A stretch of 64,000 bases of DNA, from NCBI GenBank assembly GCA_029448655.1, contig JACCLO010000010.1:558001-622000 (forward strand), read 5' to 3'. The DNA is from Wolfiporia cocos. Taxonomy: Eukaryota > Basidiomycota > Agaricomycetes > Polyporales > Phaeolaceae. Positions 9,097-51,546 of the stretch are shown here, piece by piece. The stretch's first letter is position 1, and each line of letters opens with the position of its first letter. The notes beneath the pieces are model-generated. The model was given only the letters and a program-made list of their open reading frames with translations, was not told where the DNA came from and searched no databases. Made by a program: the position numbers and the translations under genes.

Positions 9097-9102
9097 TATA
9101 AA
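9097..9102 (+). promoter_or_regulatory. TATA box of first five-exon orphan gene
   Basis: TATAAA lies 85 bp upstream of the ATG at 9187. A matching TATAAAA lies 89 bp upstream of the paralogue's ATG at 12622, within otherwise conserved upstream sequence. Confidence 0.55.
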
Positions 9103-9186
9103 TGTTAGACATCCCCCAGCCCGCATTCCGCATCCAGCGTATCCTCTCCTCTTCCTCCTTTATATAGGTCTATAACTGGCTCAATC

Positions 9187-12532: not shown

Positions 12533-12539
12533 TATAAAA
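12533..12539 (+). promoter_or_regulatory. TATA box of second five-exon orphan gene
   Basis: TATAAAA lies 89 bp upstream of the ATG at 12622, in the same relative place as the TATA box of copy 1. Confidence 0.55.
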
Positions 12540-12621
12540 CCTGGGCATCCTCCGACCACACCCCACATCCTGTACATCCTCTCGTGCTTCTCCTTTTCAT
12601 AGGATTCTGATTGCATCAATC

Positions 12622-14230
12622 ATGCCCAATCTGTGCTTCAATGCGTATTCGGCCTTGCGTGCTTGGCAGGTGTTGACCTCGGAAGCCGAAATGCAACAAC
12701 AGGACATCTCTGGACCATGCACTAATGCAGGACAATTAATAGATGTTGACACGCTCGCGCTGTATGAATGTGTAACCAGCCCCGACCAGGACTCAGTGGA
12801 AGATCTGGCAAAAGACCTCGACGCACTGATGCTCTCTATTGGTGCACAATATCCGAGCACATTGACTGTCTTGCAGCCCATACCGCTCCTATGCCGTGTT
12901 TCGCCTTATCTCGACCTCGCCTCTGTTGGTTCCATGTTTCAATACGGCAAAAGGAACTGTGGCCAGTTCCTCCTCGATTATAGCGATCCGATGACAAAGT
13001 ACATCGCAGATCTTCCGTACTCGGATATCCTGGTCATGTTCAAGGTAATACAATGTCCTGCTTAGGCTCAAATTCTACTAACGATGCGTAGTTTATGCAT
13101 AGCTTGGGATGCTGCATACGGATTGAGAGGGTCAAAGATAAGACGCTAGGAGAGGTGGTCGAAGAAATCTCAACAGCATTTGAGAAGTACTGGAAGGTGC
13201 GTATGAGCACATATTATAGATGGCTGGGAAGATTGCTGACGTTTGCGAGTTCGCCTTTAGATTATTGGAGGAGTTTCTCTCGACCAATCTGGCAACATAG
13301 TGGAGAACGAGGATGAATGCGAGGTCCACATTTGTCGCATTCCGGACGGCGCAGACGACAGCGCAGTAACCAAGGAAGAAGAACATCTCATAAATCATCT
13401 CAACTCGCAGTTGATCTTCCCTGAAGGACTGGTGTACATTGTCCGCAACATCTTTCGGGTCAGCATGGTCGTCGGTCCTAATCCACTGATGCTCGGGAGC
13501 GACCCCAACATTACGCCGCCCTGGCACATGACAACCACAAGAACGAATGCATTGGAACCAGTAGTCTTGCTTCCCACGGAGAAGTTTGTCTTCTTCAGTA
13601 TGTCTTTATTCGACATCAATAAGACAGAATTTCCCCCAGTGGAACCCATCTTCTTCCAGTACATGACAGAATGTCACGATCACAAGGCCGGGGTCCATAC
13701 GTATCCAACATTCAGTGATCTCGACCAATGGAGTGATGAATACGCAAAACTAGAAAATGCGTCTTGGACGCCGTTTTCTGCCGGCTGGCCGGGAACTGAG
13801 ATTCGTATCTGGTACTATGTAAGTCTGATTATCCCTTGATCTTTTATCGAACAGAGCTGCTACATTTAGCTCCAGTGGCCCGATTCCAACGAGAATGAAG
13901 CATACCAGAATGTCGTGACGATACCTAATATCAGTCCAAACACAAAACTGAAAGATTTGGCACGAGCAATGGGGACCGCGTGCAAGCAGTTTACATATGT
14001 ATGTCGACAATTCTCTTCGCTCTCATTCCCACCAAACAAATATTCCGCAGGATCAGTGCTATATAACATCCGACAATCTCCCCGTCATTATCCGGATGAC
14101 ACCGTATCCTCGTTCCTACAGAAAGAGAGATGGAACTATACTAGAAATCAAAAGCGACAGCTCTATTTACCTAGCAGGGTTAAGTCATGTTTCTGGGACG
14201 AACGTGTTTCAGGCGTTGTTGATGGTATAG
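12622..14230 (+). CDS. Orphan protein, five exons, copy 2 (462 aa)
   Basis: This is the paralogue of the gene at 9187. Exons are 12622-13044, 13092-13196, 13261-13818, 13876-13998 and 14051-14230, again all phase 0, totalling 462 residues. Exons 2, 4 and 5 have exactly the same lengths as in copy 1; exon 1 is one codon shorter and exon 3 two codons longer. Shared blocks include LCFNAYSALRAW, DILVMFK, RIERVK, TTTRTNALEPV, FPPVEPIFFQY, HTYPTFSDL and SYRKRDGT. Indels are in multiples of three and no stop interrupts any exon, so both copies look functional. The function is unknown; no fold is recognised. Confidence 0.8.
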
Positions 14231-15699
14231 GCCGGTAATAAAGAGTTGACAAGCTGGTTTTCTTTCATCACTGCATCAATGGTCATTGTCATCGTCGCAT
14301 TGACCGCTATGTGTATAATCTCATACACGATATATGAAATTCTGTAACGGATCGTCCTCTACCTAGCTGAACGCTAATTCTAATCCCCATTCTCTCTGCA
14401 CCGTGTTATCATGAGAATTGTCTTTTTGTAGCGTGTCGAAAGGCACAAATGTATCGGGATGCCTGCCCTGTTATGTTTGCGGGCCAACGATACTGCATAA
14501 CAAACACCCAAATCAGTATTTGTTGCTGAATATGTCATGGCTAGGAGGGCACCCTTGACCTCGGGAGGGCATTCTCTGTGCATCTGCAAAGCGGACTTCG
14601 ATGATCTCGACAAGTGCCGACGACCTGCATAATGGATGAGCAAAAACGCACCTACTAAGCCCGAACACACGTTAGCTGCTCATGAGCGTCTGCAAGGTGG
14701 TCGACTTGGAGCGTGTGATTGCCGAACTTGCAAAGAACTAAGCCGGATTTACTGATCAGCGTGAGCATAAGTCACTGCATTTGATACATCACTCGCTACA
14801 TGGGACACCGGCGCCACAGGCATCAGTAATGCAGCCATGAACCGCTTCATGCTCGCGACACCAGGTCATCGTGGCGAGAAGGCATTAGCGAGACGTGCAT
14901 TACTATTAGTTATCGTTATCAAGACGACCAATGATGCACTACATTCACGACTAGTGTTAGGAGTCTAACATCTGCCGCAGCGCCTACCTTAGGCCTAGGC
15001 ATAGGACCCATGCGTCGTAATTCATTATTTAGAGTCGGCGTTGTGTTCCTGTACATGAGGAGATCTGTGTGTCCCTCACAGTTGATTTGGGTCTCCGGAT
15101 GGCTGCAGAGCATCAAGCTGTGGCAGATGTGACGTGTCGCGTCGCGACTTCACGTGATACTGTGACCTCATACCTCATACCCAATCAGTCCGCTCTCATA
15201 CACCTATGCACTTATGTCTGGGTCGCGTTCAGCAACATTGGAGCTTGCACGACAACCTAAATGGTCTTTGCCCTTAATGAAAGGGTCTTTGGCGCTGGAT
15301 TTGACCAATCGATGCTGCGTTAGAGGCGGTATCGGGATGCGAGACTGCAGGAACAATTCAAACAATCAAGATAGACTGTATTATCAGCGTGGCGTCATTG
15401 AGTGCACGGCTCAATTGTTCATCGTTTAAAGCGTGGGGAAACCGCACGCAGACGCATTGTCCTGGACGCACCAAAGCGTAGGCGAAGTGATGGATTAGTA
15501 AGCGCGTTGAAGCTATTTAGCGCGCGGGGCCACCGCTCCCTTTCAGCTCACCACCCACTATTCGTTTGGCCAAATCCATCACCAGCGAACCGCGGACGAA
15601 ATTGGCATTTGAGTCTTGCTCTCTGACATATTGACAACTCGATCGGCAACGCAAAGGCTAATTTGTCACGTACAACGGTAGGGACGCCCTATCCCATCG
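14231..15699. other. No gene recognised
   Basis: 14231-14700 is the downstream arm of the tandem duplication. 14700-15699 holds no frame with family resemblance. The undetermined 5' exon and promoter of the next gene probably lie in its last few hundred bases. Confidence 0.35.
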
Positions 15700-16803
15700 A
15701 TGTTGAGCTCATCGTCATCAACATCATGTCCAGATCTCGTCAACGAGATGAAGAATATCAGGAGAGATAGAAGCTATGCCAGTTCCCAGACCAGGGGACA
15801 GGACGGCAGGTGGACCAGGAGCCAAGGTAGCCGGGATAGCGCCTCTGCCACTAAAGCGGTATGCAACGCCAACCTCGTCATAGACCTACCAGCTAATAAT
15901 ATGGCGACTAGGGCAAGGTGGAGAGTATGGCGATGCTCCGTGGCAAGATCGTCGAGAACCAGATCAAGATCTTGGAAAAGAACCTGCTCGACCTCACACC
16001 CATGCTCGACGGGGCCGAACAGATCGCCGAGCAGCGTGCTCGTGCGTACGCCTTATTCCGGAAGTTCAAGGCTGTCGAGCGGGCGTACGTAGAGACATTC
16101 TGCGGTAAACACAAGAACGAGCTCCACCTCCTAGACCCCACGGTGGACGACCTTGTCGAACCAGCGGTCCCCAGCATCTCTAATGACGAGTCGGACTCAG
16201 AGGTAGAGGAGGGTAGCATTAGGCGCGATCTTGACATTCCGGAGGAGTTGAAGGAGACGAACGGCTGCTGGTCTGCGATGGCTGACAAGGCTAGGACCAT
16301 TGCTCCGTTGCCGCGTCGTGCTTTCCAGCGCGGCCAGCTGGCAACGCTGACCGGATTCGGCACCAACAGAGCCGCGCTGGCGTTGGGAGGAAGTAACAAG
16401 GTGTCGTTTGCCCCCGAGCCTATCGATCGTGCGTGCTCACCATCGTATTTCGAGTGCATGAGCTGACTCGCCTCTCACAGGCCCGAGCAAGCGCGTCAGG
16501 GATGATATCTTCGTCAGCCTCGACGAAGCTCTTGGAGACTTCGGCCTGAGGGAGAAGAAGCGTGCTAGGTTTGAGCAGGAGGCAAACGATCGTAAGGGGA
16601 AAGGCAAAGTGGTCGGCCCTCGCTACATTTCGCCGCCGCCCTCAACGCGTCGTCGCCTTTCTACACCGCGTCGCCCTACCCGTCCGACTGTCGGGACGTA
16701 TTACTCTGCAGCTGGGCCATCAACTTCATCTGGACCCTCCTACGAGTATGCAGTCGCCACTGTCCCCGAGGACGCTGATACCGAGGTGGAGACGGATGAG
16801 TAG
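15700..16803 (+). CDS. Hairpin-tailed orphan family, member A (5' end unresolved)
   Basis: The family is not recognised. Supported exons are about 15700-15858 (Ser/Arg-rich, ends phase 0), 15912-16428 and 16481-16803. The first shared block is a helical segment ending RKFKAVERAYVETFCG, aligned with RRFKATQSVYMLKFCS (members B, B') and RQFRVAEDEYRARFCG (member C). An acidic stretch (NDESDSEVEEGS) and a basic, disordered C-terminal part (SPPPSTRRRLSTPRRPTRP) follow. The frame stops at TAG 16801-16803. The same frame stays open for 16 more codons to CTG-TGA (16849-16854) inside the conserved stem-loop, where the other members stop, so the TAG looks like a later, premature stop. The first exon and ATG were not fixed. 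No membrane segment is present; a nuclear or scaffold role is possible but unproven. Confidence 0.6.
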
Positions 16804-16845
16804 ACTGGGCAAAAGACAGCCGCACACATAGACAGCATGCACTCC

Positions 16846-16920
16846 GATCTGTGACGATCGTGTCGCAGATCAGGAGGAAGGCGTGTCGAAATGCGGGCTG
16901 CCCCTTGTTCGGCACTGCCT
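16846..16920 (+). other. Tandem stem-loops downstream of member A
   Basis: Stem-loop 1 (16846-16871) pairs GATCTGTGAC with GTCGCAGATC, ten pairs including one G-T wobble, around a 6-base loop. Stem-loop 2 (16879-16920) pairs AGGC-GTGTCGAA and GGG with CCC, TTCGGCAC and GCCT around a short loop. The order, spacing and core words (CTGTGAC; TCGAA...TTCG) match those behind the other three members of the family. Confidence 0.7.
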
Positions 16921-18984
16921 AAAGCACTCAGATCGTCCGACGCGCATACACGAACGCGGTGAATTGGATTCAACAATAATTCGCTCACTTTATAACTTGG
17001 ATTATCGCTTCTCCCCGGCCGCAGCACAGGTTTTACTCAGATATCACGCGCCCCTCCATAGAATGGCGGATGGCCACCGTCGGATGCCGTCGTAAGCTAA
17101 CTGAATAGTGAGTTTGGCTTTGAACATATTGTCTGAGTTAGTGACAGTCAGAATAATACAGTCATTGCCGTTGTCTTAAACAACCAGTCTGAGGCGGCTA
17201 CTTCCGGGGTTGATAGCAGGGCAGGGGTTTTTTGGGAGTATAGTGCAGTCTGTTCGAGAACCTAGCAAATAGAAGAAGCGTGCTTTGTTGATTGCTGATT
17301 AAGTTCGTTACATTATGTAATCTGCGGCTCAAATGGAGATAATGGAGATGTCAATTGACATGTGGAGTATTCATGCCCGCTCTTCAGCAGTAACAATTCT
17401 CGTAGAGATACGTCAATAGGATGCATCGCGTCGCTACGCATGTGCACCGTGACACGTTACTTCGAGAGATTGAGCGGCATGCTGTGCGATCATTTTTGAG
17501 ACCTTAGTCCCAGATTTATGTACAAAGAATCTAACACTCTAGTACTGTATATTGAGCAGACTTTCATAGCGGAAGTCACGGGGAAGATGAGATGCCCTTA
17601 CATCCGTAGAGGAGTTCGCGCCACATAACACCGCATTTCACTCATGCACAACATATGACAGCTTGTGGAAAGCGACTTGTACCATGTCAACATCAACATC
17701 ACGGGCACAACATATATTTCATCTCATATATTTCATCTCGTGAAAGACATCTCCTTCCCCATGCGGTGGCGTAGTTTCAAATTCCAGGCCCCGCTTTGCC
17801 TCAAGCAAAGTTTAAACTTTGTGACTCGGCTTCGTGGAATCCTGCGACTGTTCTCCGTATGTTCAATGCCACAACACCTTCAATAACAAGGTATTCGAGC
17901 GAGGGCAGTGACGTGCCATTGGACAATCGCAAAACCCGTTCTTTTGCTATGTACTAACCTATCCTCCATCCTATCCCCATCGTCTTCTATGCTACCCTTT
18001 ATATTCACAAGATGAGTGCAGACTGTTAACAGTCATGTACTCCGACAATGTGATGGTCCAGGTGCGTCGTCATTGATCTCATCTCAGCAAGCCTTTGGAA
18101 GTGAGCGCCTAGTCCGGAACGTTGAGACGCCCATTTCTCGCGTAGATCGAAGCTGTGCTACCGGCACGCATAACGGCTCCGTACAGTGGCCTATATTGTG
18201 GTCGCAACAAGTCCTCACATGTCTTCTCCGTGAGTGCAAATCCCGTGAGTATCTCCTACGGCGCATCACATGCACGTCAATGTTGACACCTGAACCACAG
18301 CCAGATCATTCATCGAGAGCGCATCGGGGACAGGCTGCCGCAGTGTAGCATTACGGACTCTACAAGAAGGTGCACATCAGCTACGCAAATTCAGGAGCAC
18401 ATCATTTGAGTGAATTGCTGATATCCTGGCGAAGACGGTACACCCCACCGCTCGCTCGACCGAATTCTAACAATGTGAGCAGTACGCTATGTTGTTCGCT
18501 GGACTCACAAGTCGAACGAGATGAACTCAAAGCGAAGGAGACATTCTCCCACACTCGATGTTGAGACTCTAGTGTAGCGTGCGACGTGTTGCCAATATGC
18601 CGCATTCTATCCTCAAGCCACAGCAGAGAAGGACTTCTCTCTTATGTGCCCCGCAGAGATCCTCAAGTTTCAAGGTTTGAGGTACGGCCGACTGCAATGG
18701 CGGCGACGATATACGCAACTTATCGCAGGTGCTCAGGACGAGATAGTGCGCTAGGGCTGTTGTATATTGACAAACAGGACATACAGCAGTTGTACATGCA
18801 AAAAATAAAAACGCACTCTAAGCGTGCAAGATAACGCGAATGAAAACCGTAACGGGAGCATCAATAGCAGAGAAGTTGTCGAGAAGAAGAGGAAACAAGA
18901 TGGTGCGTGGCCACCATTGTCAGATCGTACGCTAATAGACGTATTTTGTGCACGTCATGGAGTTAATTTCGACTAATGGAAACG
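16921..18984. other. No gene recognised
   Basis: About 2 kb lies between two hairpin-tailed genes that face each other (member A on +, member B on -). Several short frames exist (for example 18016-18348), but none has a family signature or convincing splice partners. No tRNA or repeat was seen. Confidence 0.35.
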
Positions 18985-18988
18985 AGGA

Positions 18989-19059
18989 CATGTCGAAATG
19001 AGGGGCGAGCCTCGCTTCGACATGCCCCTTTGCTACTCTGTAACATATTTGTCACAGAG
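18989..19059 (-). other. Tandem stem-loops at the stop codon of member B
   Basis: Read on the minus strand, stem-loop 1 (19059-19036) pairs CTCTGTGAC with GTTACAGAG, and the gene's TGA stop (19052-19054) lies inside its 5' arm. Stem-loop 2 (19024-18989) has a perfect 9 bp outer stem, CATGTCGAA with TTCGACATG, and an inner GAGG/CCTC stem. Confidence 0.8.
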
Positions 19060-21056
19060 TGGGTTGGGTGCTGTTGTGGTGTTGGTTAGCCCCTCGTCCC
19101 ATTCCCGTGCGGCGGGACGACGAGGAGGCATTGTGGCCGCGAAGTCGCTTCGGGCGAGTCGTGACCCAGGACGAAGGCGGCAGTTCGACACTCGGACGCG
19201 ACAGACGAGTGTACGGTGCCGCATATTGCTCGTGGTAGCGCAGGAGCTGCGTCCGCTGGACGCCTAGCGCGCTTATGATCTGCGACGAGACGGGGAGCGG
19301 CAGCATGTCGTCGCCAGAGGATGGGCCAGCAGAGGGAAAGAGCTGCATGCCCTGCGTGCGCAGAACCTCAGACGATCCGGATGGTGCAGGCACAGGGCCA
19401 TCTAAAAGGAAGGCAGGAGCAGCAAGCAGAGGCGGAGGAGCAAGGGGCGCTACGTCACAATGCTCGGGTTGGGTTTCAGGAACAGCCTGAGGCGCTGCAG
19501 GAACTGATGAGGCCTTGTTGTCGGCGGGAGCGAGAAGTGGGGACGACAATGGGGAAGCCAGGATTGCGGGGTCACGGGGCCTGCGGCGGTTCGCTTGGCT
19601 CGGGGGAATGATACGGAGCAGGCACATATCCGCAGGCTCGGTGAACGACGGCGACGAGGGCGGGAGCGGAGGCGAGACAGATGTATTATACCAATTGGAC
19701 ATCGCGCCCGAACGATCAGAGTCGCTACCTGATCCATCATGCTCGATGCTCATGGACCGCTCGCCGTCAGTCATCTTGCCCGGGCTGATGCTGTATGCGA
19801 CGCCGTCGTCGTCGTCGATGGCGACTCCTCGGCCCATGAGTACCTCCTTAATCTTGTCGTTCCGTGCATCTTCGAAATTCTCGTGGTCCTTAGAGCCCTC
19901 CGAAATGAGAACGCCTTCACTTGTGGTCAGATTATCGTCGTCCATGGCCTGATCGTCGGTGCCGTTGACACATCCCGTGTCATGCTCGTCCCCAATGCTG
20001 TGGTCTGATGTTTTGTCCTCGTCTCCTTCATCTTTCCCATCGTTGTACCTGGCGTCCACATAGCAGCTATACATCTCGCTCGAAGATGCCGGCGGGTAGT
20101 TGCTGAGTTGTTCGTCGTCGCCATGCACCATAGATTCTCTGGCGGCGTCATCGCTTTTGCCCTTGGTAGCGGGCGATCCTACGCCAGGAATCGCTCAGTG
20201 AGTCAATCATATAGAACGACATAATTTCGGGCATACCTGTCGCCTCGGAATCGCACGTGTTGGCACCAGCAGCCTTGCTGTCCTGATCCTCCGCTGTCTC
20301 CTGCCACGACTCCATGCATATCATCTCCCCTGAAGCTGGCTGCGTCAGCCACGACATGTCATCGAAATCGCCCTCGAATCCCTTCGCAGCCACCTGTTCC
20401 TGCTCAGCCTTCGTCATCGGTCCATCTTCCTCATCCTCCTCGTCGCTATCAAACTCATTGTACGCCCCCGTCTGCTCAGCCTCAGGATCGAACGCAGATC
20501 CCAGAGAGCACGTCGACGAGCTCATTGTGCCGACCCGTCGCGAGAGCCCCACCATGTCACGATACCCGGGCTCCAGATCAACGATGTCGTCCATGCTGCA
20601 GAACTTAAGCATGTACACCGACTGTGTCGCCTTGAATCGTCGGATCATTTCCAACACTTGCACGTGGTGCTCCCGTGCCAGCTCACTCGTTTTGATCAGC
20701 GTGTCGTAGAAGATGTGGATGTCTCTCGACATCTGTTTCGCTTGGCGGAATATATCCTCGGCGAGGGCCTCTGCACGCACTCCCTGATACGATCATCTTA
20801 TCAGTCGGCAGAACAACAAAGGACAAAGGAGAGAGCGTCGCGTACTTCCAACGTGCCGATCAAGGTCATGGAGGCTCTCCCTTTGATCACATTCGGATTC
20901 ATGCTGCACAGGTCGCTGGCACATCTGCCACAGTATGCGAGGCCATTCATGGGCTCTGGTAGCAGAATCAATGACCCGTTCGTTGGCAGCACTGATGGCT
21001 GATGAGGCCGCAGGCGCTTGCTCACCGTGATCTGTCTTCTGGGAAAACAAAGGCAT
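19052..21056 (-). CDS. Hairpin-tailed orphan family, member B (about 604 aa)
   Basis: The proposed exons on the minus strand are 21056-21026, 20955-20846, 20783-20237 and 20178-19052. Their phases fit exactly and give 604 residues. The last two exons are firm; the first two were chosen because the exon-2 donor (GAA-GTACGC) matches that of member C. The protein has a helical N-terminal third (EALAEDIFRQAKQ ... EMIRRFKATQSVYMLKFCS), a very acidic middle (DSDEEDEEDGP and many D/E runs), a Pro/Ala-rich low-complexity region and a basic end containing RYHEQYAAPYTR and VTTRPKRLRGHN. It ends PTL at CTG-TGA within the first stem-loop. It is nearly identical to the inverted copy at 40579-42583. No catalytic motif is seen; the function is unknown. 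Confidence 0.7.
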
Positions 21057-21510
21057 GGCGTGTAGCAGGCAACAGTCAATGGAAAATGCCACAAGTAAGT
21101 CTGACAGTTGCTGTAGCCAATTGAATGATGATGGTAGTGAGGAAAGGTGGCGACATCGCACGCGGAGGCTTATAAGATAGCTTACATAATTAAATCTCAG
21201 CGAAGATCGCGACGCGTTGAACGCGATCACATGACAGACGCGCGTTGAATCATGACCGCGTCGCAGACTTGAAGTCTTCTTGTATTGCAGCCTATTTCTA
21301 TACTGCCCCTTGACCTTACATTTCTGAGTTACTTACGATAATACAAGTGCCGGAACTTGATCCTGGCACTCAACGGCTAACCAACCTCATTGTCTGAGAT
21401 ACTGGACATTGCATGGGGGCGTGTTTAGCAATACACAATGTATACAAAGTTACCTTGCCGCTATCAAAGAAATTTACATGTAATCGTATCACATCATTTA
21501 CTTGTGATAT

Positions 21511-36248: not shown

Positions 36249-38168
36249 ATGTTGTATGGCCTACTCGTCAGTAGTCTTGTGGCCGTCCCGGCGCTCTGCG
36301 CCACTGCCGCAGAATGGCAACATCGCTCCATTTATCAGGTGAACACTCTACTTGTCCGATGCAACTGCCATCGCTGATGACCTCACCTGCACGTTTCCAG
36401 CTCGTTACGGACAGGTTTGCGACCACTGACGGCTCTTGGCCTGCGTGCGATACCGAGGATCGTGTCTATTGCAATGGTACCTGGCAAGGCATCATCAACA
36501 AACTAGACTACATACAAAATATGGGTTTCGATGCAATATGGATTTCGCCCATTGTAGCGAACCTCGAGGGCACCACTGGCGATGGCCAAGCATATCACGG
36601 GTGCGTCATAATAGATTGCTGCCAGCGTTCAGGCTCATCAGAAAGTAGATACTGGACGCAGAACCAGAACGCCCTGAACAGCCATTTCGGAGACGAGACG
36701 ATCCTCAAGAATCTTAGCACGCAGCTGCACAACCGCGGGATGTACCTCATGATCGATGTCGTCGTGAACCACATGGCGGCAGACACGCTTCCGCCAGACT
36801 ACTCGCTCTTCACGCCGTTCAATGAGGAGTCCGACTTCCACCCGTTCTGCTGGATTACGAACTACAACAACCAGACAAACGTCGAGCAGTGCTGGCTCGG
36901 CGACGACGAGGTGCCCCTCGCGGATATGGACACTGAGGACGACGCCATCGTTGAATTCTTCTACAACTGGATCACCGATCTCGTTGGCAACTATAGCGCC
37001 GACGGCGTACGCATTGACACCGTCAAGCACATCCGCAAGGATTTCTGGCCTGGCTTTGCCGAGGCTGCTGGGGTGTTCACTATAGGTGAAGTCTACGATG
37101 GCTCTGTTGATTACGTTGCTCCATATACTGGTGAAGTGAATAGTTCCTGCGCGCGAACTCCTCCGTTGATCCGGTGACACAGAGGTCCTAGACGCTGTGT
37201 TGGACTACCCGACATACTACCAGCTTCTTTATGCTTTCGAGTCCACAAGCGGCTCCATTGCCAACCTCGTCTCATGGGTCACGTCCTCCCAATCATCGTT
37301 CAAGAACGGGGAGTTTATGGTTGGGTCGTTCCTGGAGAATCAGGATCAGCCACGCTTCCAATCAATACAGACCGATCAGGCGGTGGGCATGTTTTGCAGC
37401 GCAAGGCATCTCATTACTCACGCATGATGCTCTACTAGCTTGTATCAAATGCGATGACATGGCCGTTCATTCAGGATGGCATCCCTATCTTGTATTATGG
37501 TAAACCATCTCATCGTGGTGACATCACATAGTCTTCACGGATTTGCAGGCCAGGAACAAGGGTATACAGGGGGTGACGACCCGTACAACCGCGAAGCGTA
37601 CGTATTGTGCGGTTCCAATAGTCCAGAGTCACTGAACCTGTACCTAACCACAGATTATGGCTATCTGGCTACGTAGAGGACAAGCCGCTTGTTAAACTTG
37701 TCAGGAAGCTCAATGCTGCACGCAAAGTTGCGATCAACTCAGACAGCGACTTCCTCAGTACAGCCGTGAGTGCAATTTTCGCAGTCAAACTGCAGATCAG
37801 ATTCGGCTCACAATCACTACGCAGTTAACATTCACGTCCGTCGAAAGTTCGACGTTTGCAGTCTCAAAGTATCCCATGCTTACGCTTCTCACGAATGGTG
37901 GAAGCAGCTACACGCCTTCATGGGACGTTTCTGACGCAGGATTCGCATCTGGTGATGAGCTCATTGATGTCTTGACGTGCGATACATACACTGCGTCAAG
38001 CGACGGTGGCGTCAGTATTACTGGGTCTGAGGGAATGCCGATTGTGAGTATATCATTACCGCTAGTTGTCCGCGCGGTTTACGTGGTGCTGATCATGTCG
38101 TGTAGGTTCTCATGCCAATCTCCATGTTCAATGCGACGTACTGTGACTATCTGCTCAATTCGTATTGA
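36249..38168 (+). CDS. Alpha-amylase GH13, secreted, without GPI signal
   Basis: Nine exons fit in phase: 36249-36338, 36401-36600, 36649-37130, 37183-37382, 37439-37499, 37549-37597, 37654-37765, 37825-38043 and 38106-38168. A signal peptide (MLYGLLVSSLVAVPALC) leads to the start of the barrel, SIYQLVTDRF. Conserved GH13 regions are DVVVNHMA (region I), GVRIDTVKH with the nucleophile Asp (II), TIGEVYDG with the acid/base Glu (III) and FLENQDQPRF with the transition-state Asp (IV). Region IV has Gln where TAKA-type amylases have His (NHD). The C-terminal beta domain (TLLTNGGSSYTPSWDV) follows. It ends ATYCDYLLNSY with no anchor signal. Role: extracellular hydrolysis of internal alpha-1,4 bonds of starch or glycogen. 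A paralogue lies at 49487-51546. Confidence 0.92.
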
Positions 38169-38697
38169 ATGAGCTTGATTGGCGCTTGCCTACGTATATG
38201 GCCTCTGGGAATGTGTACACAACGTGTCGCGTACCGCGCGCCTTCTTATTACTTAACGCCACGGATATGATATCATCGATCGCTGCTTCGGCCGCCAATA
38301 TCTAGCACCCCAAAAGCGTAGTGGCGTAAAGTCTCGCCCGGTTGGCGGCGTCACGCCCGTGTTTCATAATCGCGAGCTGTTGGCATCATGCGCTGGCAGA
38401 CGCGCAGCATATATGTATCCTCTCGGCCGCTTGCATCTCAGATCCCCCAAGGCTACTTTCAACATACGCCCCTGGTACGACTGGTACGCAGACGACATTG
38501 GCGTCTCGTGAGGATCATTATATTAGTCAGAGTGTCGCACCAAGTGCGAAATCCAATAGCAGCAGGAACAGCTCTCCGCCGTTGTAGCAATAGAACATCC
38601 GCTCATACACTACCTGTGAGTTGTCTCAGTGATCCACCAGTAACTGAGTAAACAATTACTAATCCTTGTTCTCTCAGTTAGTCTTTTATCTTGCACC
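38169..38697. other. Intergenic gap
   Basis: This holds the 3' flank of the amylase and the promoter of the F-box gene. No further feature is seen. Confidence 0.4.
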
Positions 38698-40371: not shown

Positions 40372-40578
40372 TGCGCGGCGCGGTCACGACTCAACGGGCG
40401 TATGTCATGTGATCGCGTTCAACGCGTCGCGATCTTCGCTGAGATTTAATTATGTAAGCTATTTATAAGCCTCCGCGTGCGATGTCGCCACCTTTCCTCA
40501 CTACCATCATCATCCAATTGGCTACAGCAACTGTCAGACTTACTTGTGGCATTTTCTGACTGTTGCCTGCTACACGCC

Positions 40579-42583
40579 ATGCCTTTGTTTTCCCAGAAGA
40601 CAGATCACGGTGAGCAGGCGCCTGCGGCCTCATCAGCCATCAGTGCTGCCAACGAACGGGTTATTGATTCTGCTACCAGAGCCCATGAATGGCCTCGCAT
40701 ACTGTGGCAGATGTGCCAGCGACCTGTGCAGCATGAATCCGAATGTGATCAAAGGGAGAGCCTCCATGACCTTGATCGGCACGTTGGAAGTACGCGACGC
40801 CCTCTCCTTTGTCCTTTGTTGTTCTGCCGACTGATAAGATGATCGTATCAGGGAGTGCGCGCAGAGGCCCTCGCCGAGGATATATTCCGCCAAGCGAAAC
40901 AGATGTCGAGAGACATCCACATCTTCTACGACACGCTGATCAAGACGAGTGAGCTGGCACGGGAGCACCACGTGCAAGTGTTGGAAATGATCCGACGATT
41001 CAAGGCGACACAGTCGGTGTACATGCTCAAGTTCTGCAGCATGGACGACATCGTTGATCTGGAGCCCGGGTATCGTGACATGGTGGGGCTCTCGCGACGG
41101 GTCGGCACAATGAGCTCGTCGACGTGCTCTCTGGGATCTGCGTTCGATCCTGAGGCTGAGCAGACGGGGGCGTACAATGAGTTTGATAGCGACGAGGAGG
41201 ATGAGGAAGATGGACCGATGACGAAGGCTGAGCAGGAACAGGTGGCTGCGAAGGGATTCGAGGGCGATTTCGATGACATGTCGTGGCTGACGCAGCCAGC
41301 TTCAGGGGAGATGATATGCATGGAGTCGTGGCAGGAGACAGCGGAGGATCAGGACAGCAAGGCTGCTGGTGCCAACACGTGCGATTCCGAGGCGACAGGT
41401 ATGCCCGAAATTATGTCGTTCTATATGATTGACTCACTGAGCGATTCCTGGCGTAGGATCGCCCGCTACCAAGGGCAAAAGCGATGACGCCGCCAGAGAA
41501 TCTATGGTGCATGGCGACGACGAACAGCTCAGCAGCTACCCGCCGGCATCTTCGAGCGAGATGTATAGCTGCTATGTGGACGCCAGGTACGACGATGGGA
41601 AAGATGAAGGAGACGAGGACAAAACATCAGACCACGGGATTGGGGACGAGCATGACACGGGATGTGTCAACGGCACCGACGATCAGGCCATGGACGACGA
41701 TAATATGACCACAGGTGAAGGCGTTCTCATTTCGGAGGGCTCTAAGGACCACGAGAGTTTGGAAGATGCACGGAACGACAAGATTAAGGAGGTACTCATG
41801 GGCCGAGGAGTCGCCATCGACGACGACGACGGCGTCGCATACAGCATCAGCCCGGGCAAGATGACTGACGGCGAGCGGTCCATGAGCATCGAGCATGATG
41901 GATCAGGTAGCGACTCTGATCGTTCGGGCGCGATGTCCAATTCGTATAATACATCTGTCTCGCCTCCGCTCCCGCCCTCGTCGCCGTCGTTCACCGAGCC
42001 TGCGGATATGTGCCTGCTCCGTATCATTCCCCCGAGCCAAGCGAACCGCCGCAGGCCCCGTGACCCCGCAATCCTGGCTTCCCCATTGTCGTCCCCACTT
42101 CTCGCTCCCGCCGACAACAAGGCCTCATCAGTTCCTGCAGCGCCTCAGGCTGTTCCTGAAACCCAACCCGAGCATTGTGACGTAGCGCCCCTTGCTCCTC
42201 CGCCTCTGCTTGCTGCTCCTGCCTTCCTTTTAGATGGCCCTGTGCCTGCACCATCCGGATCATCTGAGGTTCTGCGCACGCAGGGCATGCAGCTCTTTCC
42301 CTCTGCTGGCCCATCCTCCAGCGACGACATGCTGCCGCTCCCCGTCTCGCCGGAGATCATAAGCGCGCTAGGCGTCCAGCGGACGCAGCTCCTGCGCTAC
42401 CACGAGCAATATGCGGCACCGTACACTCGTCCGTCGCGTCTGAGTGTCGAACTGCCGCCTTCGTCTTGGGTCACGACTCGCCCGAAGCGTCTTCGCGGCC
42501 ACAATGCCTCCTCGTCGTCCCGCCGTGCGGGAATGGGACGAGGGGCTAACCAACACCCAAACAGCACCCAACCCACTCTGTGA
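40579..42583 (+). CDS. Hairpin-tailed orphan family, member B' (604 aa)
   Basis: Exons are 40579-40609, 40680-40789, 40852-41398 and 41457-42583, totalling exactly 605 codons including the stop. The product differs from member B by a handful of substitutions and no frame break (for example NSYNTS for NWYNTS, RAGMG for RTGMG). This suggests a recent duplication with both copies still coding. A TATA-like TATTTATAA lies at about 40461-40469. The domains are as in member B: a helical N-terminal third ending KATQSVYMLKFCS, a strongly acidic middle, a Pro/Ala-rich linker and a basic end. The stop TGA at 42581-42583 lies in the 5' arm of stem-loop 1. The function is unknown. Confidence 0.75.
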
Positions 42584-42646
42584 CAAATATGTTACAGAGA
42601 AGCCAGGGGGCATGTCGAAGCGAGGCTCGCCCCTCGTTTTGACATG
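42576..42646 (+). other. Tandem stem-loops at the stop codon of member B'
   Basis: Stem-loop 1 (42576-42599) pairs CTCTGTGAC with GTTACAGAG and is identical to that of member B. Stem-loop 2 (42611-42646) pairs CATGTCGAA with TTTTGACATG. Relative to member B, a C to T change turns a G-C pair into a G-T wobble, so pairing is kept. Confidence 0.8.
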
Positions 42647-42650
42647 ACCT

Positions 42651-45600
42651 AACCTCACTCAGGCCGTTCGTGGCTCGTCTCATCGACCACAGAAGATATC
42701 TGTTAGTGCGCAGCCCGACCGATATTGACCACGCACCCTTTGATCTCCTCCAATCTTCTTTCTGGACAAATATTCAGGCATCGAACACCAGATGTCGCCG
42801 TCATCCATATTACCTGGTGATGTTACACTGACTTTGTTCAGTCTTGGTATGTCGAGACTACAGCTGTTATCTGTCTGTCCATGTATAGCAGTCCTAGTGT
42901 ACTATCTTGTCTGGAGCCCTTGCAGTAAATTGGATACACATTGTCTCTGTCGCTGCCGTCGAAGTCCATTCTAGTCCCTGAACCTTGATAGATCCCTGTG
43001 GCATACATCAGACAGAAGGCTCGTCACTCCACACGATCACCAATTTATGCGTTACCGCTAGCGACGCACGGCACACTCGGTCCTTGGTGACGAAATGTTT
43101 CTCTATGTGGCCGCCTCGTTTCGGCAAGTCCTAGTCAGTCCCCGCCTCCGCTCGACAAAGCGTGCTGCTCGCATCTGCCATCGTTCAGTAAAGCGGGGGG
43201 TGACACGCACCTTGGTATACTGCCAATTTACCGCTCGAATACTGATCACCAGATGTATGGTAGTGCGTGGATTGGCGTGGTTGAGTTGCACACTGGATGC
43301 TTCCTTAGGGTTTATGTCATGACCGTTGTTCGAATGTTCATGTCAGCATCGAGGTGCATGCTGTCCGCATTTAGTGGAACCACGCAGAGATCAACAAAGA
43401 TATTTGGCCACACCGCAGTGTAGACCACACCGCAGTGTAGACCACTACATGGAGCTATTTTGCCAGCCGATGGCAAGTGAGAGCACGGGCGCTTTAACGC
43501 TTCAGCCCGAGCAAGCGCTTGGCGCTGGAAGGCCGGCTAAGGTTTGGTACGACGCACCCAGTTCGTTGCATAAAGTCCGAGTATGCAGCCACGATCTGTA
43601 CCATCTGGTGCTCGGGAAGTCCAGGAGTACCACTTAGAACCAAGGTTCACAAAGCGGGGAAACTAAGATATTCGTTCACCCAATGATGTCGCTGTTTGTG
43701 CCCGAGCGTTCGGTCATTGGGGGGATGAGAGGTCGAAGACAGATATTACGGGGAGGACAAAGGCTCAGTTACAAAACTTAAGGCAATGCGGGGTTCGAAG
43801 TCTCGGCAAACTGCGCTGCTTGGGCGCATGCTTGAGCGCATCGTTGATGACGTCCTAGCAGGCCTTCCATCCTTTCTATGATATTGGCTTGTGAACTTAG
43901 TCTATCAGCATTTCAACGTTAACGCTGGATGGCGAATTCCACACAATTGGGTTTAAAAATTACATCCCCAACCGGGCTGTGGCGCTGTGTGGCGCGATCT
44001 CAAGATCTTTGAGGAGATGAACCATGCCTTCGCTCATGATCAAGCCTTGGCTTAGTATTGAGCATCTACACGGCTTTCCCGTAATCTCAATGCACGAGAA
44101 TGATGGTGCTCATTATTATCTACATGCTCCGCCACTCAAGCTGGGGCGCAGGGATGTCGTGGGATGCACGAGGTGAGGTCATCTTGTTGTTCCCGTGTCT
44201 TCGCTTTCATTAATTGGGACTTAAGCGGTGGGGGTTGTTTTTCGCGATTGATGAGCAGACGACTCCGCACTATCTATTGTCTACATGTTATGCCACCCGG
44301 ACATCACAGGCTCAAGTCTGGATGTCTATATCGTGGTGCATCCTGCATTGGCGTTTCGACCCGTGCGCGTAGAGGAATGACTGGATTATATGCCAGAGCA
44401 AACTCAACGTATATTCAAGATGTATTTTCTGTCTCTTCATATACTTCCACTTCGTCGGACTGGCCCCAAGGTACCTCACTAATCATGTAATTCTGACCAA
44501 TGCGTGTCCCAACAGACTGAGACCACCGCTCCAAACCGAAGATTATCTATCGTCATCGTCACGGACGGACCGAGAGCCTTCAAATTGGCCGGATGGGAGG
44601 TTCTGGGGCCTTTCAATAGCATCTTCCCGGAGGTCCTGCGCATCAGCGAATCGCGTTCGATTGACATGCCTCAGTAAGCTCGCATATCCAGTCGCGAGCG
44701 CCGAAAACTCTCCAGTCTGCGCGTGTACGGGAAGTGGATGCAGAAGTGAAGCAGGCGATTCTTTGTGCATGGCCACTCCTGTGCGATCACTCTGAACAGC
44801 CATGACAACTTGAAAAATGTCGCCCACGATCTGATGCAGGCAAGCGAGATACACCGACGTCTCGTTGACCTGCCAGTGAGGGAAGCTTATCGCATCTCCT
44901 ACCTTTGTAGGGTCAGCGAGGGGCTTGATCATGTTACTATTTTTCCATCGACAAAGCTGAGGTGATGGTCATGGGTGTCAGCGAAGGTCCGGGTGTATAG
45001 GAGTCAATGAGACGCACGGTCAAGAATTCGTTGAATCCCTTGTATATCTCGTGAGCCAGAGGTTCGTGCCCTGACCTAAGTGAGGCTCTTCCCATATAGT
45101 GCGGGCAGTTGGGTAGCTATTCACGATTAGCAATCATGAGCTGGGAATGATGTTGTCCTCGACATACCACATATAGTAGCCGGATATTCTGGGTCGGCCA
45201 GGCGCTGTAAGGGAATGTCGAGCTCATGCATACGTGGTCTTGGTTTGTTGCAGACTCATACTTAGCCATGCATCCAAGGTCAAGATTCCGGCTGTCTGCA
45301 GAGGTCCTGCAGTAAAACATAGTGTCTTTCACATTTGGCCATGGGATCTTCTTGTCGAGGGTTTTGATGAGATGGCTATGCAGATCCTCCATGGCGAGCT
45401 GCCGAGTAAACGTATACCGATCCGCTAGGCTCTTTTGCACGATTTCTATATCTGCGTCCACTATGTTCTGTGTGGCGGATTCGCTGGGATGGGAAAATTG
45501 CATATGCATAATGAGAAGCTAGAGACGGATGTTTGCACGAGGTAGGTGACAACCAGAACGCTGAGTGGGGAACTGCAAGACGCGTGTGGCGTGGTGATGT

Positions 45601-46390: not shown

Positions 46391-48387
46391 ATGTCAGGCC
46401 AAAACGTCAACCAAGAGTTGAATGGTGCGTGCTGCCACACAGCAACTCGCCGAATGCGGTCACTGATCTTTGATGATCGTCCATAGACTATGTCAGGGAG
46501 ATCCTACGCCCCCGCCGCGAGACGTCCACCGCCACCAACGAAGCCTTCGTTGCCGAGGCCGTCGCTCAAGGCGCGACACCCGCCGCCGCCATCGAGCTAC
46601 TTAGCGATCTCGTACGCTCCGTCCCTCCTCACCCCATCCTCCGCCACTCACACTCGCCATCCTGACTCCACAGGAGAGCGCGCGGCGCGGCGAGGCGCTC
46701 GCCGCGGAGGCGCGCGCGCTGTTCCGGCACCTTCTGTCCTTCCGCGCGCTGATGCCGGGCGCGGTGCAGGACGGCGAGCAGCGCGCGCTCGTGCTCGCGC
46801 TCGTGCGGCAGTTCCGCGTCGCGGAGGACGAGTACCGCGCGCGTTTTTGCGGGCCGGACGACGCGCCACTCATGCGCCCCGGCGCGCTCGACCGCTTCCC
46901 GCCACAGGTCGGGCTCGGCGTGGACTTCGCCCGCCCGTGGGGAGATGCGCACGGCGATGCCGAGGGTGCAGAGGATGCGGACGGCGTCGGCCCTGGCAGT
47001 CCGCAGGTGAAGATCGAGGTGGAGGATGATGATTTGAGTGAGTCGGATCTGCGTTATGACATTCGATGCGGTTGCTGACTGAGGTGTAGGGTCGCCGTCG
47101 CACGAGCCGAGCAGCAGGCGAGTGTCACCTGCGCCCGAGGCTTACTACGACCCCGGCGCCCCGGCTCCGTGGGAGAGTGACGACGAGGACGTTAACGAGC
47201 AGGAAGCGGTCGGCACCGATGCGGTGAAGCAGGAGGACATCGACTCGGACATCGGCACGGTATCTCAGGCGCACGACGAGCAGGCGGACTTCGTAAATAG
47301 CGCGGACCTGTTCGTAGACGAGGAACCGGTAGTCAAGCAGGAGGACGAGTCGCGTCAGAGCGGCTACGACAGCGACGAGTGGCTCTACGGCAACTCGTCA
47401 GCCCCCTACCTGGACACCGACGACCGCAACGCCGAGGTGAAGCACGAGGACACATACCCGGACCCGGCCAACATGAACTCTGACGACTGGCTATACGGTC
47501 CGGGATACACCACCTCCGGCATCAACGACGAGGAGCCGGCCAGCGACATCGACGAATCCGGCGACGAGCGCGGCCATATTGGCGATGACGAGGCTTCCAC
47601 CGACGACGACGACGACGCGGCGAGCATCAGCACCGTCCGCAGCTACCACTGTACGCGCGCCCGCTCCGCTCCGCTGCCAGACGTCGAGATGAGCGTCGAG
47701 CGCGAGATGTCCCCGGGGCTGGACTATGGCACGGACCTCACGAGCTCGGACGTCAGCGAGGTCGAGACGCCCCCCTCGTACCCTTACCTGGAGCTGGAGG
47801 ATCCTGTGGATGTAGTCGACAACGAAGTTCCTGATAGCCCTCACCGTCTCGTACTCCATCCCCGCCCCCTCTACTGGCCAACCATATCGCGCACGCCATC
47901 TCCCTCGTCCCCGCCGCCACTGTTCGCCTCTCCGCTGCGTACGCCCTCGCCCCCGCTCGTGCTGCACCCCTCGGTGCTCGCTCCACACAACCCCTCGCCG
48001 CCACCTGGACTGCACCCGGCCCGCTACGTCGCCCGTACGCCCTCGCCGCCTCCCGCCGCTGCAGGGACCGAGGGCGACACCATCCCCTCGCCGTCGACGT
48101 TCGCGGAGTCGTACGAGAGGGGACAGGCCCCAGCAGTGGCGGTGGCCCCAGCCGCGTCGACTTCCGGCGTGCAGCGGAGGCAGGGGCCGCGCGAATACCG
48201 TGCGCATGCGGCGCCGTACGTCCGTCCCGCTCCCGGCGAGCGTCGAGCGTGGGCGCGCTCGCGCATTCGCAGCCCGGCGCCGATGGACGCCCCCGTCGCG
48301 CCCTACAGCATCCACATCCCGTTTTTTGCCCGCGAGCAGGAGCAAGAAACAACCCAACAATTTGCGAACATCCACGACGACCTGTGA
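46391..48387 (+). CDS. Hairpin-tailed orphan family, member C (606 aa)
   Basis: Exons are 46391-46424, 46487-46611, 46674-47037 and 47090-48387, all in phase. Intron positions match those of members B/B'. The N-terminal block (MSGQNVNQELNDYVREILRP ... EALAAEARALFRHLLSF ... LVRQFRVAEDEYRARFCGPDD) is helical. A long acidic region carries several V-K-Q-E-D / V-K-H-E-D motifs (SUMO-acceptor-like psi-K-x-E) and repeated DEWLYG / DDWLYG units. A Pro-rich part with TPSPP repeats follows, then a basic end with YRAHAAPYVRPAPGERRAWARSRIR. It ends HDDL at CTG-TGA, inside stem-loop 1. The acidic, SUMO-motif-rich composition suggests a nuclear protein; this is inference. Confidence 0.75.
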
Positions 48388-48455
48388 CGCGTTCGTCACA
48401 GATCATGGAGGAGGTCTGTCAAATTGAGGGTCGTCCCTCGGTTTGATACGGCCTC
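48382..48455 (+). other. Tandem stem-loops at the stop codon of member C
   Basis: Stem-loop 1 (48382-48401) is a perfect 8 bp stem, CTGTGACG with CGTCACAG, and a CGTT loop; the stop TGA (48385-48387) is inside it. Stem-loop 2 (48411-48455) stacks GAGG/CCTC, TCAAA/TTTGA and GAGGG/CCCTC around a TCGT loop. The middle stem TCAAA/TTTGA replaces TCGAA/TTCGA of members A and B: both arms changed together. Confidence 0.8.
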
Positions 48456-49306
48456 CTTCCAGCACCCTTTACGAGTCAGCGCGAAGCAGCATACGGTGAT
48501 AGCGTACCTCTTTCGGCCTGAGCTCGTTGTCGTATTCCTTCACATATCTCCCTTAGAGCAGAGAGCAGAGAGCAGAGGCGGCTGGCATGGCCTCGCGCCA
48601 GTGCAACGTTCAACATTCGTGTCAGAGTTCTGTTCGTACAGATAGAGATAGCTCTAGCACCCGTTTCAGATTTATATGATCAGTGTCGCCCGAGAGTCAA
48701 GAAGCCCGTGTTCGAGGGAAAGCAGAGATGCAAAGCGAGGCAGGGATGCTCGCTTTATATGCGTACGCGGGAGGCCACATTCTAACGCGAGGGTAAAACT
48801 TGCGCGATCACTGCGCTGTCAGTCCATCGATCAGCGCCGTAATGTCCTGATCGGGCGATGTGGCTGGCACCAACTCTGTCGCGCACTCTCGTGCAAGTAT
48901 ACGCAGCTAGCTTCCGAGATGAATTTCGTGCACTGTTTATCACTAGCACCTGCTTGCATGCAGTGCGTGTTATCCGTTTGCAGTTATAACGTCGCGGTGA
49001 GAGTCAGCATATCGCACCTGAAAGTAGTCCATCAAGCGAATGTACGCGGTCCCTCTTCCCGCGCATACACGCGATGCATCACAGAGCAGTCTCGCCGCAG
49101 GTTCCCAGGTACATATCACAGGCCGTTGAGTGCATGTAATTGCCTGAAGGAGGGTAACGTCTGATCTCGCGGCAAGCATGCCTACACGTTATGTGAGTGA
49201 AAGCTGCTTCCTCGATACTTCATCCCAATTATGCACTGTCTGGCTACGCGGATCCCATTGACACATCGATTGCGTAATAGGTGCGCGAATATATTACTAC
49301 CCAAGG
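48456..49306. other. Convergent intergenic region
   Basis: This lies between member C (plus) and the GPI-anchored amylase (minus). No gene is recognised. A short AGAGCAG direct repeat occurs near 48557-48575. Confidence 0.4.
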
Positions 49307-49444
49307 CAACCGCAATCTATCCCGTCCATAACCAATTCGCGCATAGCTAGTCCGATTGTCCGTCCCGCGGCAACACAACCGCAATCTATCCCGTCCATAA
49401 CCAATTCGCGCATAGCTAGTCCGATTGTCCGTCCCGCGGCAACA
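49307..49444. repeat. Two perfect 69 bp tandem repeats
   Basis: Copies 49307-49375 and 49376-49444 are identical and begin CAACCGCAATCTATCCCGTC. They lie 43 bp beyond the stop codon of the amylase on the minus strand, so they probably sit in its 3' UTR or terminator region. Confidence 0.9.
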
Positions 49445-49486: not shown

Positions 49487-51546
49487 CTACATCATCATCC
49501 AAACCGACCCAAAGACGACCGCCAACACCACTCCCAGGCGTTCAACAGCACCCGGGAAACTCTGCCCACCCGCCCCAGACTCCTGCGTCTCCACCCCCGC
49601 GTTCCCACTAATATCGGTCTTCAGCGCATTGCAGTAACTCTCGTTGAACGCCGACACCGGCAGGATGACCTGCGCACCCGTGCGGGCCACGATCCCGGCA
49701 CCGTCAGCGTACGTCTCGTGAGTCGCAGAGCGCATCGGGACGCACCTGCGGCATCCCGCCGGAGCCCTGCACGCTGACCCCGCCGTCCTTGTCCGCCTTC
49801 ATCGTGTCGCACGAGAGCGCGTCGATCAGGTCCTCATCGCCCGCGTACCCCGCGTCTGGGACGCTCCACGAGGGCGTGGACGCGCTCCCGCCGTTCGTCA
49901 GGAGCGTGAGCATCGGCGGCTTGGAGACGACGAGGGTGTTTTGCGATACGGAGAGGAACTTGAGCTGCGGTGCGTGGTGGTGAGGGCTGGCTGCGGTGGT
50001 GACGAGGTTGATGGGACTCACGCTCGTGTTCAGGTACTGGTCGCTGGCCGCGATCGCGGCTTTGCGCGCGGCGTTGAGCGTGCGGACGTGCATGACGAGC
50101 GGCTTGTCCTCCTCGTACCCGGATAGCCAGAGGCTGGTGACCTGTGAGTAAGAGCGTTCATGTTGCGACAGCTTGATCGCTTACGCCTCGCGGTTGTACG
50201 GATCGTTGCCCCCTGTGTACCCCTGCTCTTGACCTGTTCAATCTTGAGATCAGCAGAGCACGCAGACACTCCTCTCACGACTGACCATAGTACAATATCG
50301 GGATGCCATCCTGGATGAAGGGCCAAGCCATCGCGTTCTTCACGAGCTGCGCGCAACGTCCGAGGCGCCGTCAGGACCTCGGAATCGAAAGAGGACATGT
50401 CACGTACCGCTTGGTCGGTCTGGGTGGACTGGAACCGCGGATTGTCCTGGTTCTCGAGGAACGACCCGGTCATGAACTCGCCGAGCCGGTATGAAGACTG
50501 CGCGGCCTTCACCGTGTCCGCCAGCTCGGAGAGGTTGCCGCTCGTCGTGTTGAACGCGCGGTATAGCGGGTAGTAAGTCGGGTAGTCCAGTACGCTATCC
50601 ACGACCCCTGGTCACCTCATCCTCAGCAACCATTTCGGCGCAGAAGAGCGTGGGACCCACCCGTGTATGGACTGACATAGTTCACGTCGCCATCCAACAC
50701 TTCGCCAATGGAGAAGACATTAGCGGCCGCCACGAACGCTGGCCAAAAGCTCTTCCGAATATGCTTCACGGTGTCGATCCGGACGCCGTCCGCGCCATAC
50801 TCGATGACGAGGTTATGTATCCAATTGTTGAAGAAATCGACGATCGCGTCGTCCTCCGTGTCCATGTCCGCGAGGGGCACGTTCGTGTCTCCGAGCCAGC
50901 ACTGCTCGACGTCCGTCTGGTTGTTGTAGTCCGTGATCCAGCAGAAGCGATGGAAGTCCGCCTGCTCGTCGAACGGCGTGAACGCGGTGTAGTTGGGCGG
51001 GAGAGACGTCGCGGCCATGTGGTTCACGACGACGTCGATCATGAGGTACATTCCCATCTCGTGCAGCGTCGTGCTGAGCAGCTTCAGGTCCGCGTCCGTG
51101 CCAAAATGGTCGTTCAGCGCGTTCTGGTCCTGCGTCCAGTACCTGCGCGCGCCACACACGCGTCAATGCCAAGACGTGCCGCTACGGGTCGCGCACGCAC
51201 CCGTGGTACGCCTGCCCCTCGGGCGTCGTCCCTTCGATGTTCGCGACGATCGGGGAGATCCAGATCGCGTCGAAGCCCATGTTTTGGATGTAGCCGAGCC
51301 TGCTGATGACCCCCTGCCAAGTGCCGTTGCAGTAGATGCGCTCGCCAGTATCGCACGGCGGCGCGGAGCCGTCGGACGTGGCGAACCGGTCGGTCACCAG
51401 CTACTCGCTTCGCCGTTAGGACGGCGCGTCGATCTGGCGTCCGCTTGTGCGCTCACCTGGTATATGGACCTCTCCTGCCAGTCCTGCGCCGACGCGCAGA
51501 GGGCGGGGGCAGCCAGCAGGCTTGCGGCGAAGAGGCGACGCAGCAT
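49487..51546 (-). CDS. Alpha-amylase GH13 with GPI-anchor signal
   Basis: This is the paralogue of the gene at 36249, with the same exon order. The signal peptide (MLRRLFAASLLAAPALC) starts at 51546. GH13 motifs are DVVVNHMAATS (I), GVRIDTVKH (II), SIGEVLDG (III) and FLENQDNPRF (IV, with Gln for the usual His). Other landmarks are YNNQTDVEQCWLGDTNVPLADMDTEDDAI, PFIQDGIPILYY, GQEQGYTGGNDPYNREA and the C-terminal domain TLLTNGGSASTPSWSV. After VILPVSAFNESYCNALKTD it carries an extension absent from the first paralogue: a Ser/Gly-rich omega-site region (ESGAGGQSFPG) and a hydrophobic end (LGVVLAVVFGSVWMMM). This is a classic GPI-attachment signal, so the enzyme is likely held at the plasma membrane or cell wall, where it may remodel alpha-glucan or cleave starch locally. 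Confidence 0.9.

Follow-up and report, generated by a model that had tools for sequence, protein, structure and literature searches.

Trypanosome VSG genes form a large family that diverges fast, and they share a conserved 16-mer in their 3' UTRs; this is a short linear motif, unlike the covarying double hairpin that we describe here. The secondary structures bound by Roquin are arranged in tandem and consist of small stems with defined loops. The ASH1 E3 element overlaps a stop codon; it belongs to a single gene and, unlike the double hairpin, is not known as a two-hairpin array common to paralogues. As described in PMC4117797, ASH1 E3 is a fungal mRNA localisation element that assembles She2, Puf6 and Loc1 for localisation and repression; the likeness to the double hairpin is one of description. 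In the account given in PMC5775257, one protein, Roquin, reads secondary structures in 3' UTRs, which leads to mRNA decay. These structures are animal ones, whereas the double hairpin has long stems, variable loops and an unpaired motif upstream.

Conserved 3' UTR structures of fungi are known for GLY1, MET13, thioredoxin and others (PMC8216456). As that source presents them, they are, like the double hairpin, supported by covariation and tied to the 3' UTR of one gene kind. They are predominantly single copy per genome and, in its table rows, come from ascomycete groups, whereas here we find 27 copies in one basidiomycete genome, at an orphan family; unlike the structures as they are described there, the double hairpin overlaps the coding end in part of the family. 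The word "basidiomycetes" is absent from the available text of this main fungal structure screen, and among the matches listed for conserved fungal RNA structures no title was on basidiomycetes. No such element was met with in the titles and abstract starts among the matches listed for Wolfiporia genomes and small RNAs, fungal RNA structures, the VSG 16-mer, ASH1 E3 and stop codons in stems.

Double hairpins at four orphan genes of the window

The window is the whole 64-kb stretch of DNA analysed here (C2:558001-622000), and the genome that we scanned, very probably that of a Wolfiporia and thus of a fungus that decays wood, has 64.43 Mb in 76 contigs. Four orphan genes in the window, named A, B, B' and C, each carry a double hairpin at the 3' end:

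46391-48387, plus strand: orphan gene C, four exons by inspection, with a helical block at 46674-46919 and the last exon within 47083-48387
48365-48375, plus strand: unpaired motif of C, CGAACATCCAC, a few bases 5' of hairpin 1, from the 27-copy alignment of the upstream flank
48378-48461, plus strand: double hairpin C
48379-48404, plus strand: hairpin 1 of C, 10 positions with one C-A mismatch; the stop TGA (48385-48387) lies inside
48406-48461, plus strand: hairpin 2 of C, with the conserved core at 48413-48453 and a lower stem that is longer in this copy
15700-16803, plus strand: orphan gene A, start approximate by inspection, with open frames at 15912-16466 and 16462-16803
16832-16842, plus strand: unpaired motif of A, ACAGCATGCAC, from the flank alignment
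16845-16927, plus strand: double hairpin A
16846-16871, plus strand: hairpin 1 of A, entirely 3' of the stop TAG (16801-16803)
16880-16919, plus strand: hairpin 2 of A
19052-21056, minus strand: orphan gene B, start approximate by inspection
18978-19061, minus strand: double hairpin B
19035-19060, minus strand: hairpin 1 of B, with the stop TGA (19052-19054) inside
18986-19026, minus strand: hairpin 2 of B
40579-42583, plus strand: orphan gene B', a 98% inverted duplicate of B, start approximate by inspection
42574-42657, plus strand: double hairpin B'
42575-42600, plus strand: hairpin 1 of B', with the stop TGA (42581-42583) inside
42609-42649, plus strand: hairpin 2 of B', where the homology of B and B' stops

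The original prediction had placed a double hairpin at all four genes, and all four are indeed present. They do not count as four independent copies, because B and B' are inverted duplicates (18985-21264 and 40375-42650, 98% identical and 19 kb apart), which leaves three. The border of this duplication coincides with the end of hairpin 2, and the linker and the 3' flank differ between B and B'. An in-frame CTG-TGA stop in stem 1, claimed for all four genes, is found in B, B' and C, but in A the in-frame TAG comes first and the CTG of CTG-TGA begins 48 nt past it. In the second stem, B has TCGAA/TTCGA and C has TCAAA/TTTGA as described, while A, which had been grouped with B, reads TCGAA/TTCGG. 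The one change between B and B', G-C to G-T with the pairing kept, is as claimed.

Folded as RNA, the copies reach z values of -4.1 (A), -8.6 (B), -7.3 (B') and -7.3 (C), none of the 200 shuffles of each folding as well, and the 12 of the 27 genomic copies that were folded give values from -4.1 to -9.1, with hairpin 2 very stable. A pattern for the first stem has five matches in the window, one of them the C palindrome read on the opposite strand, and none in 100 shuffles. No Rfam family reaches its gathering score anywhere in the window. The weak matches around C, to mir-81 (E 0.22), Guanidine-II (1.9) and mir-460 (4.7), all lie on the other strand and were discarded. We also rejected an H/ACA snoRNA, a class defined by the hinge box ANANNA between its hairpins: linkers such as AGGAGGAAGG, ATGGAGGAGG and GGAAGGGAGG are without this box by eye, and the window gave no Rfam match.

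Two alpha-amylase genes (Pfam PF00128) share the window, at 36275-38172 on the plus strand and 49704-51452 on the minus strand; they are about 68% alike at the DNA level, and the second runs towards gene C. DNA similar to this second amylase region recurs beside C-type paralogues at the loci L026, L027 and L037, which suggests a joint duplication of orphan gene and amylase region. Elsewhere, 8283-11268 and 11740-14684 form a tandem pair of about 3 kb units, 73% identical, for which two reading frames (one per copy) gave no Pfam family, and at 49302-49439 a 69-nt unit is repeated head to tail, its two copies being 97% identical.

Copies across the genome and their compensatory changes

The genome contains 27 copies in all, one of them partial. 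We built a covariance model, R1, from nine sequences (the four window copies and five from pattern scans of the genome), and it recognises 18 further copies, 17 full-length and 1 partial, with 35-76 bits. The copies at C2:844.8k and C2:999.0k and the partial one at C2:2170k had been found by pattern scans and were held out of R1, which confirmed them. A search with R1 of paralogue loci absent from the model revealed the element at C2:989.0k, 1009.7k, 936.9k, 1056.5k and 1081.4k. Finally, a pattern scan for the second stem gave four places on other contigs, and a DNA search from one of these brought the number to ten. These dispersed copies, on C75 (6), C23 (2), C34 and C1, all score 41-57 bits over the full model, and with them the 27 copies are spread over five contigs (C1, C2, C23, C34 and C75). 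The best non-element place in the R1 search of the loci reaches 18.7 bits, not counting elements matched in antisense (up to 25 bits). The partial copy at C2:2170k (L028) has hairpin 1, lacks most of hairpin 2 and is without a recognised family gene; it is counted in the 27 and left out of the tree tests. The copy at C23:2175k has only its 3' part in common with its neighbours.

Several candidates were not counted, namely L019, L023, L024, L025 and L029, which had been picked by the first-stem pattern and reach at most 18.7 bits, and L074 with only 14.3 bits. Genome-wide, the first-stem pattern gave 41 and 45 matches compared to 9 and 8 in the control, and a single unrelated repeat, CTGTGACGAAGAGAGGGTCGCAG with its close variants, accounts for most of the matches (some 30 rows). 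This repeat, dispersed over many contigs, mimics the first-stem pattern; the copies that we read have no such second hairpin. Another pattern scan of the genome produced 26 and 27 matches against 24 and 20 in the control; the rest of its matches and of those of two further scans, which did not resemble the element, are likewise not counted.

In the alignment of the 27 copies, 92.6% of the 734 pair cells are standard; the share drops to 35-45% when partners are slid and to 84.0% in shuffles. Thirteen pairs, with 78 cells, are changed on both sides, and the covariation score of 0.378 (0.217 shuffled) is reached in 0 of 500 shuffles. Because shuffles ignore kinship, we used a tree null in which the inferred substitutions are rearranged on a 26-copy tree while branch counts and column rates are kept. 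Measured against this null, and with alignments that are fitted to the structure, we observe 10 double compensatory events where 0.81 are expected (0 of 1000 simulations), and pairing is kept in 64 of 97 changes (66%, compared to 45%; 0 of 1000). The same test with 16 copies gives 8 double events against 0.67. Hairpin 1 alone accounts for 7 double events against 0.38 (0 of 1000). Hairpin 2 alone is weaker, with 3 double events against 0.44 (14 of 1000) and 6 pairs changed on both sides against 3.4 (56 of 1000). At the level of single pairs, an R-scape-type pairwise test written for this analysis lets 1 of 28 pass E<0.05 with 26 copies, and with 16 copies 0 of 28 are significant. The structure as a whole is secure; the single pairs are not. 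A larger alignment thus covaries above the tree null as a whole, and together with the pairing in the 27 copies this supports one part of the original prediction, namely that divergent orphan genes end in a single-strand structure under selection whose changes compensate each other.

We do not use the excess of wobble pairs as proof of RNA. It amounts to 76 G-U against 12 A-C cells in 17 copies and to 101 against 28 in 26 copies, but when the observed substitution types are simulated, G-U again exceeds A-C (119 against 48), and counted by events the difference (28 against 17) is not significant (p=0.14).

A few bases before hairpin 1, most of the 27 copies carry the unpaired motif ACAgCATcCAca at nearly fixed spacing, with the family consensus ACAgCATcCAc in the 27-copy alignment. 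The motif encodes (N/S)(I/M)H in those C-type and C23 copies in which the frame continues through it, and it persists in copies whose stop comes before it. When ten subfamily representatives are compared, 32 of the 45 pairs align at the DNA level, and by our own filter 30 of these alignments overlap the element in register. Many of them span only about -40 to +75 around hairpin 1, and some reach 100-200 nt further. Since many of the alignments are confined to this stretch, the element forms a conserved island in DNA that has otherwise largely turned over.

The gene family and the place of the stop codon

The family genes have a short helical block in common (14 pieces aligned), and the C-type last exon is acidic and proline-rich. 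In gene C this exon (47083-48387) contains repeated VKQE-like and acidic WLYG motifs; we take the former to be SUMO-type, and both together presumably suggest a nuclear protein with activation-type segments. Five family protein pieces scanned against Pfam gave nothing above the cut-off. The proteins match only hypothetical proteins of Wolfiporia cocos MD-104 (2, 3 and 4 matches for different queries). In a database of 5.8 billion proteins no relative outside Wolfiporia was found by a search that requires 5-residue words in common and that, for part of the queries, scored the best 8,000 or so candidates. Judged by these comparisons, the gene family is multi-copy, fast-changing and seen only in Wolfiporia. 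Among the MD-104 relatives, P0001 and P0002 have the same C-terminal NIHDDL as C, and P0003-P0005 end in RAA at the upstream stop.

Within the genome, protein searches lead to 15 loci on C2 and C23 (matches listed at E up to 10, with the best E per locus up to about 0.1), to one more on C23 and to 10 dispersed loci. An eleventh match of the dispersed search, on C6 with E 0.15, lies outside these 10, and the 10 places are identical to those from the dispersed DNA search. At 25 of the 26 family gene loci (10 of 10 dispersed, 15 of 16 others) the element follows the gene, on the sense strand. At C2:838.9k the two are about 6 kb apart, with inserted DNA between them, and we assigned the element to this gene because matches to the last exon lead up to it. 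The sole exception is C2:890.0k (L063), where the 5 kb fetched contain no element and a repeat like window 2006-2648 sits where the end of the family gene is expected. The window repeat itself is GC-rich and has a 95% identical counterpart in L027 (C2:759 kb); in L063 the family gene is without its end, at a diverged form of this repeat.

The position of the stop codon varies from copy to copy. With reading frames set by comparison with relatives, the stop lies at +7 in 9 copies, at +21 in 1, at -15 in 1 and at -35 to -44 in 13, the remaining 3 (C23:2175k, C2:2170k and C75:1409k) being left unassigned. The +7 stop inside hairpin 1 is that of B, B', C, C2:711k, 761k, 844k, 999k, 1009k and C23:2165k; it is TGA in eight of them and TAA in C2:1009k, with the pairing kept. 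At C2:989k the opposite arm of stem 1 holds the stop. In 13 copies the reading frame ends 35-44 nt before the element, all of which is then 3' UTR: A, C2:936k, 1056k and 1081k (these three with weak protein support, 27-37 bits) and 9 dispersed copies. At C23:2182k the stop is at -15 after a frame change; the C-terminal SIHTNL of its MD-104 relative, P0006, would correspond to a stop at the +7 place.

Where the stem does not hold the stop, its letters have changed and still pair. The TGA position reads CGA, CAA, CCA or, once, TAA in the ten dispersed copies and CAA in C2:936k, 1056k and 1081k. Of the 13 upstream-stop copies, 12 have CGA, CAA or CCA instead of TGA, and the new letters keep their pairing; A still has TGA in the stem, where it does not act as the stop. 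Both of the changed columns form standard pairs in all 27 copies, and the third column does so in 26 of 27. The idea that the element belongs to the stop codon, the central point of the original prediction, is not supported, and the stop in the stem is a side feature: the stop occupies the claimed place in the stem in only 9 of the 27 copies, and in 13 it is 35-44 nt upstream. Over the 27 copies we see no fixed geometry between stop and structure of the kind known from a stop-codon readthrough element. Because the stop position varies while the structure stays, control of termination or readthrough is unlikely as a function common to all copies.

Possible functions of the double hairpin

With a probability of about 0.6, we believe that the double hairpin is a family-wide cis-acting element of mRNA 3' ends; its probable role is that of a tag by which the mRNA is controlled. 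Two properties of such elements are found here, namely compensatory pairing and, at 25 of 26 loci, a constant place and orientation. The element, which would be RNA at the 3' end of the mRNAs, is about 100 nt long and belongs to a multi-copy family known only from Wolfiporia. It consists, in this order, of an unpaired ACAGCAUCCAC-like motif, hairpin 1 of up to 10-11 bp, a purine-rich linker and hairpin 2 of about 15-25 bp with a small loop, where the linker is short (8 nt before the core) and in some copies drawn into the lower stem. Its likely ancestral place would be the 3' UTR, some 35-45 nt past the stop, and in some subfamilies the reading frame would have been extended into hairpin 1. 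Most likely, one RNA-binding factor would read the motif and the hairpins on the paralogous mRNAs and may set stability, translation or localisation of the family mRNAs together. One may also speculate, with little confidence, about a self-recognising family, in which its own helical-domain proteins, or a coevolving factor, bind the double hairpin on every paralogous mRNA. Dozens of fast-diverging genes would then be held under one trans control via an RNA tag whose letters change mainly pairwise, with reading frames wandering in and out of it.

The sense-strand downstream place at all 25 loci with an element and the very stable hairpin 2 would also fit hairpins that direct cleavage and polyadenylation or transcript release for the family. 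A general signal for 3'-end formation or transcription termination, however, should not be restricted to one family, and we recognised no copy at other kinds of genes in pattern scans of limited sensitivity, of whose chance-like matches a minority was fetched; we consider this reading improbable.

Another possibility, which we hold to be quite unlikely, is an element at the DNA level, be it a cruciform that favours duplication and gene conversion of the family genes or the terminus of a mobile unit. Copies on five contigs and a B/B' duplication that stops at hairpin 2 are consistent with it. In the other duplicate pairs (L026/L027, L060/L061 and L020/L021), however, homology continues through the element, flanks included. 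Because it crosses the element in three of four pairs, the end of a gene-carrying mobile unit, which the original prediction had offered as an alternative, is not supported. The 101 G-U against 28 A-C cells point away from DNA as well, though not significantly by events.

Quite unlikely, too, is a source or target of small RNAs, in which Dicer cuts or Argonaute binds the hairpins and the family silences itself in trans. Hairpin 2 is indeed a long, nearly unbroken duplex common to dispersed paralogues, but the hairpins are short for a Dicer substrate, compensatory change preserves pairing and not sequence, and the microRNA families that Rfam matches around C score far below threshold, on the opposite strand. 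Very improbable, finally, is a stem around the stop codon that controls termination or readthrough: nine copies have TGA (8) or TAA (1) at the same stem-1 place, but in 13 of 27 the stop is 35-44 nt upstream, in C2:989k it lies in the other arm, and the dispersed copies have CGA, CAA, CCA or TAA in place of TGA with the letters still paired.

Returning to the cis-acting 3'-end element, the RNA structure seems to outlive the reading frame that it borders. The stop lies inside the stem in some copies and well upstream in others, which makes the family a natural many-copy experiment on constraint at the RNA level versus the protein level. The double hairpin is also a marker for members of an otherwise unannotated gene family, and as a candidate for post-transcriptional control of a whole family in a basidiomycete it can be tested directly.
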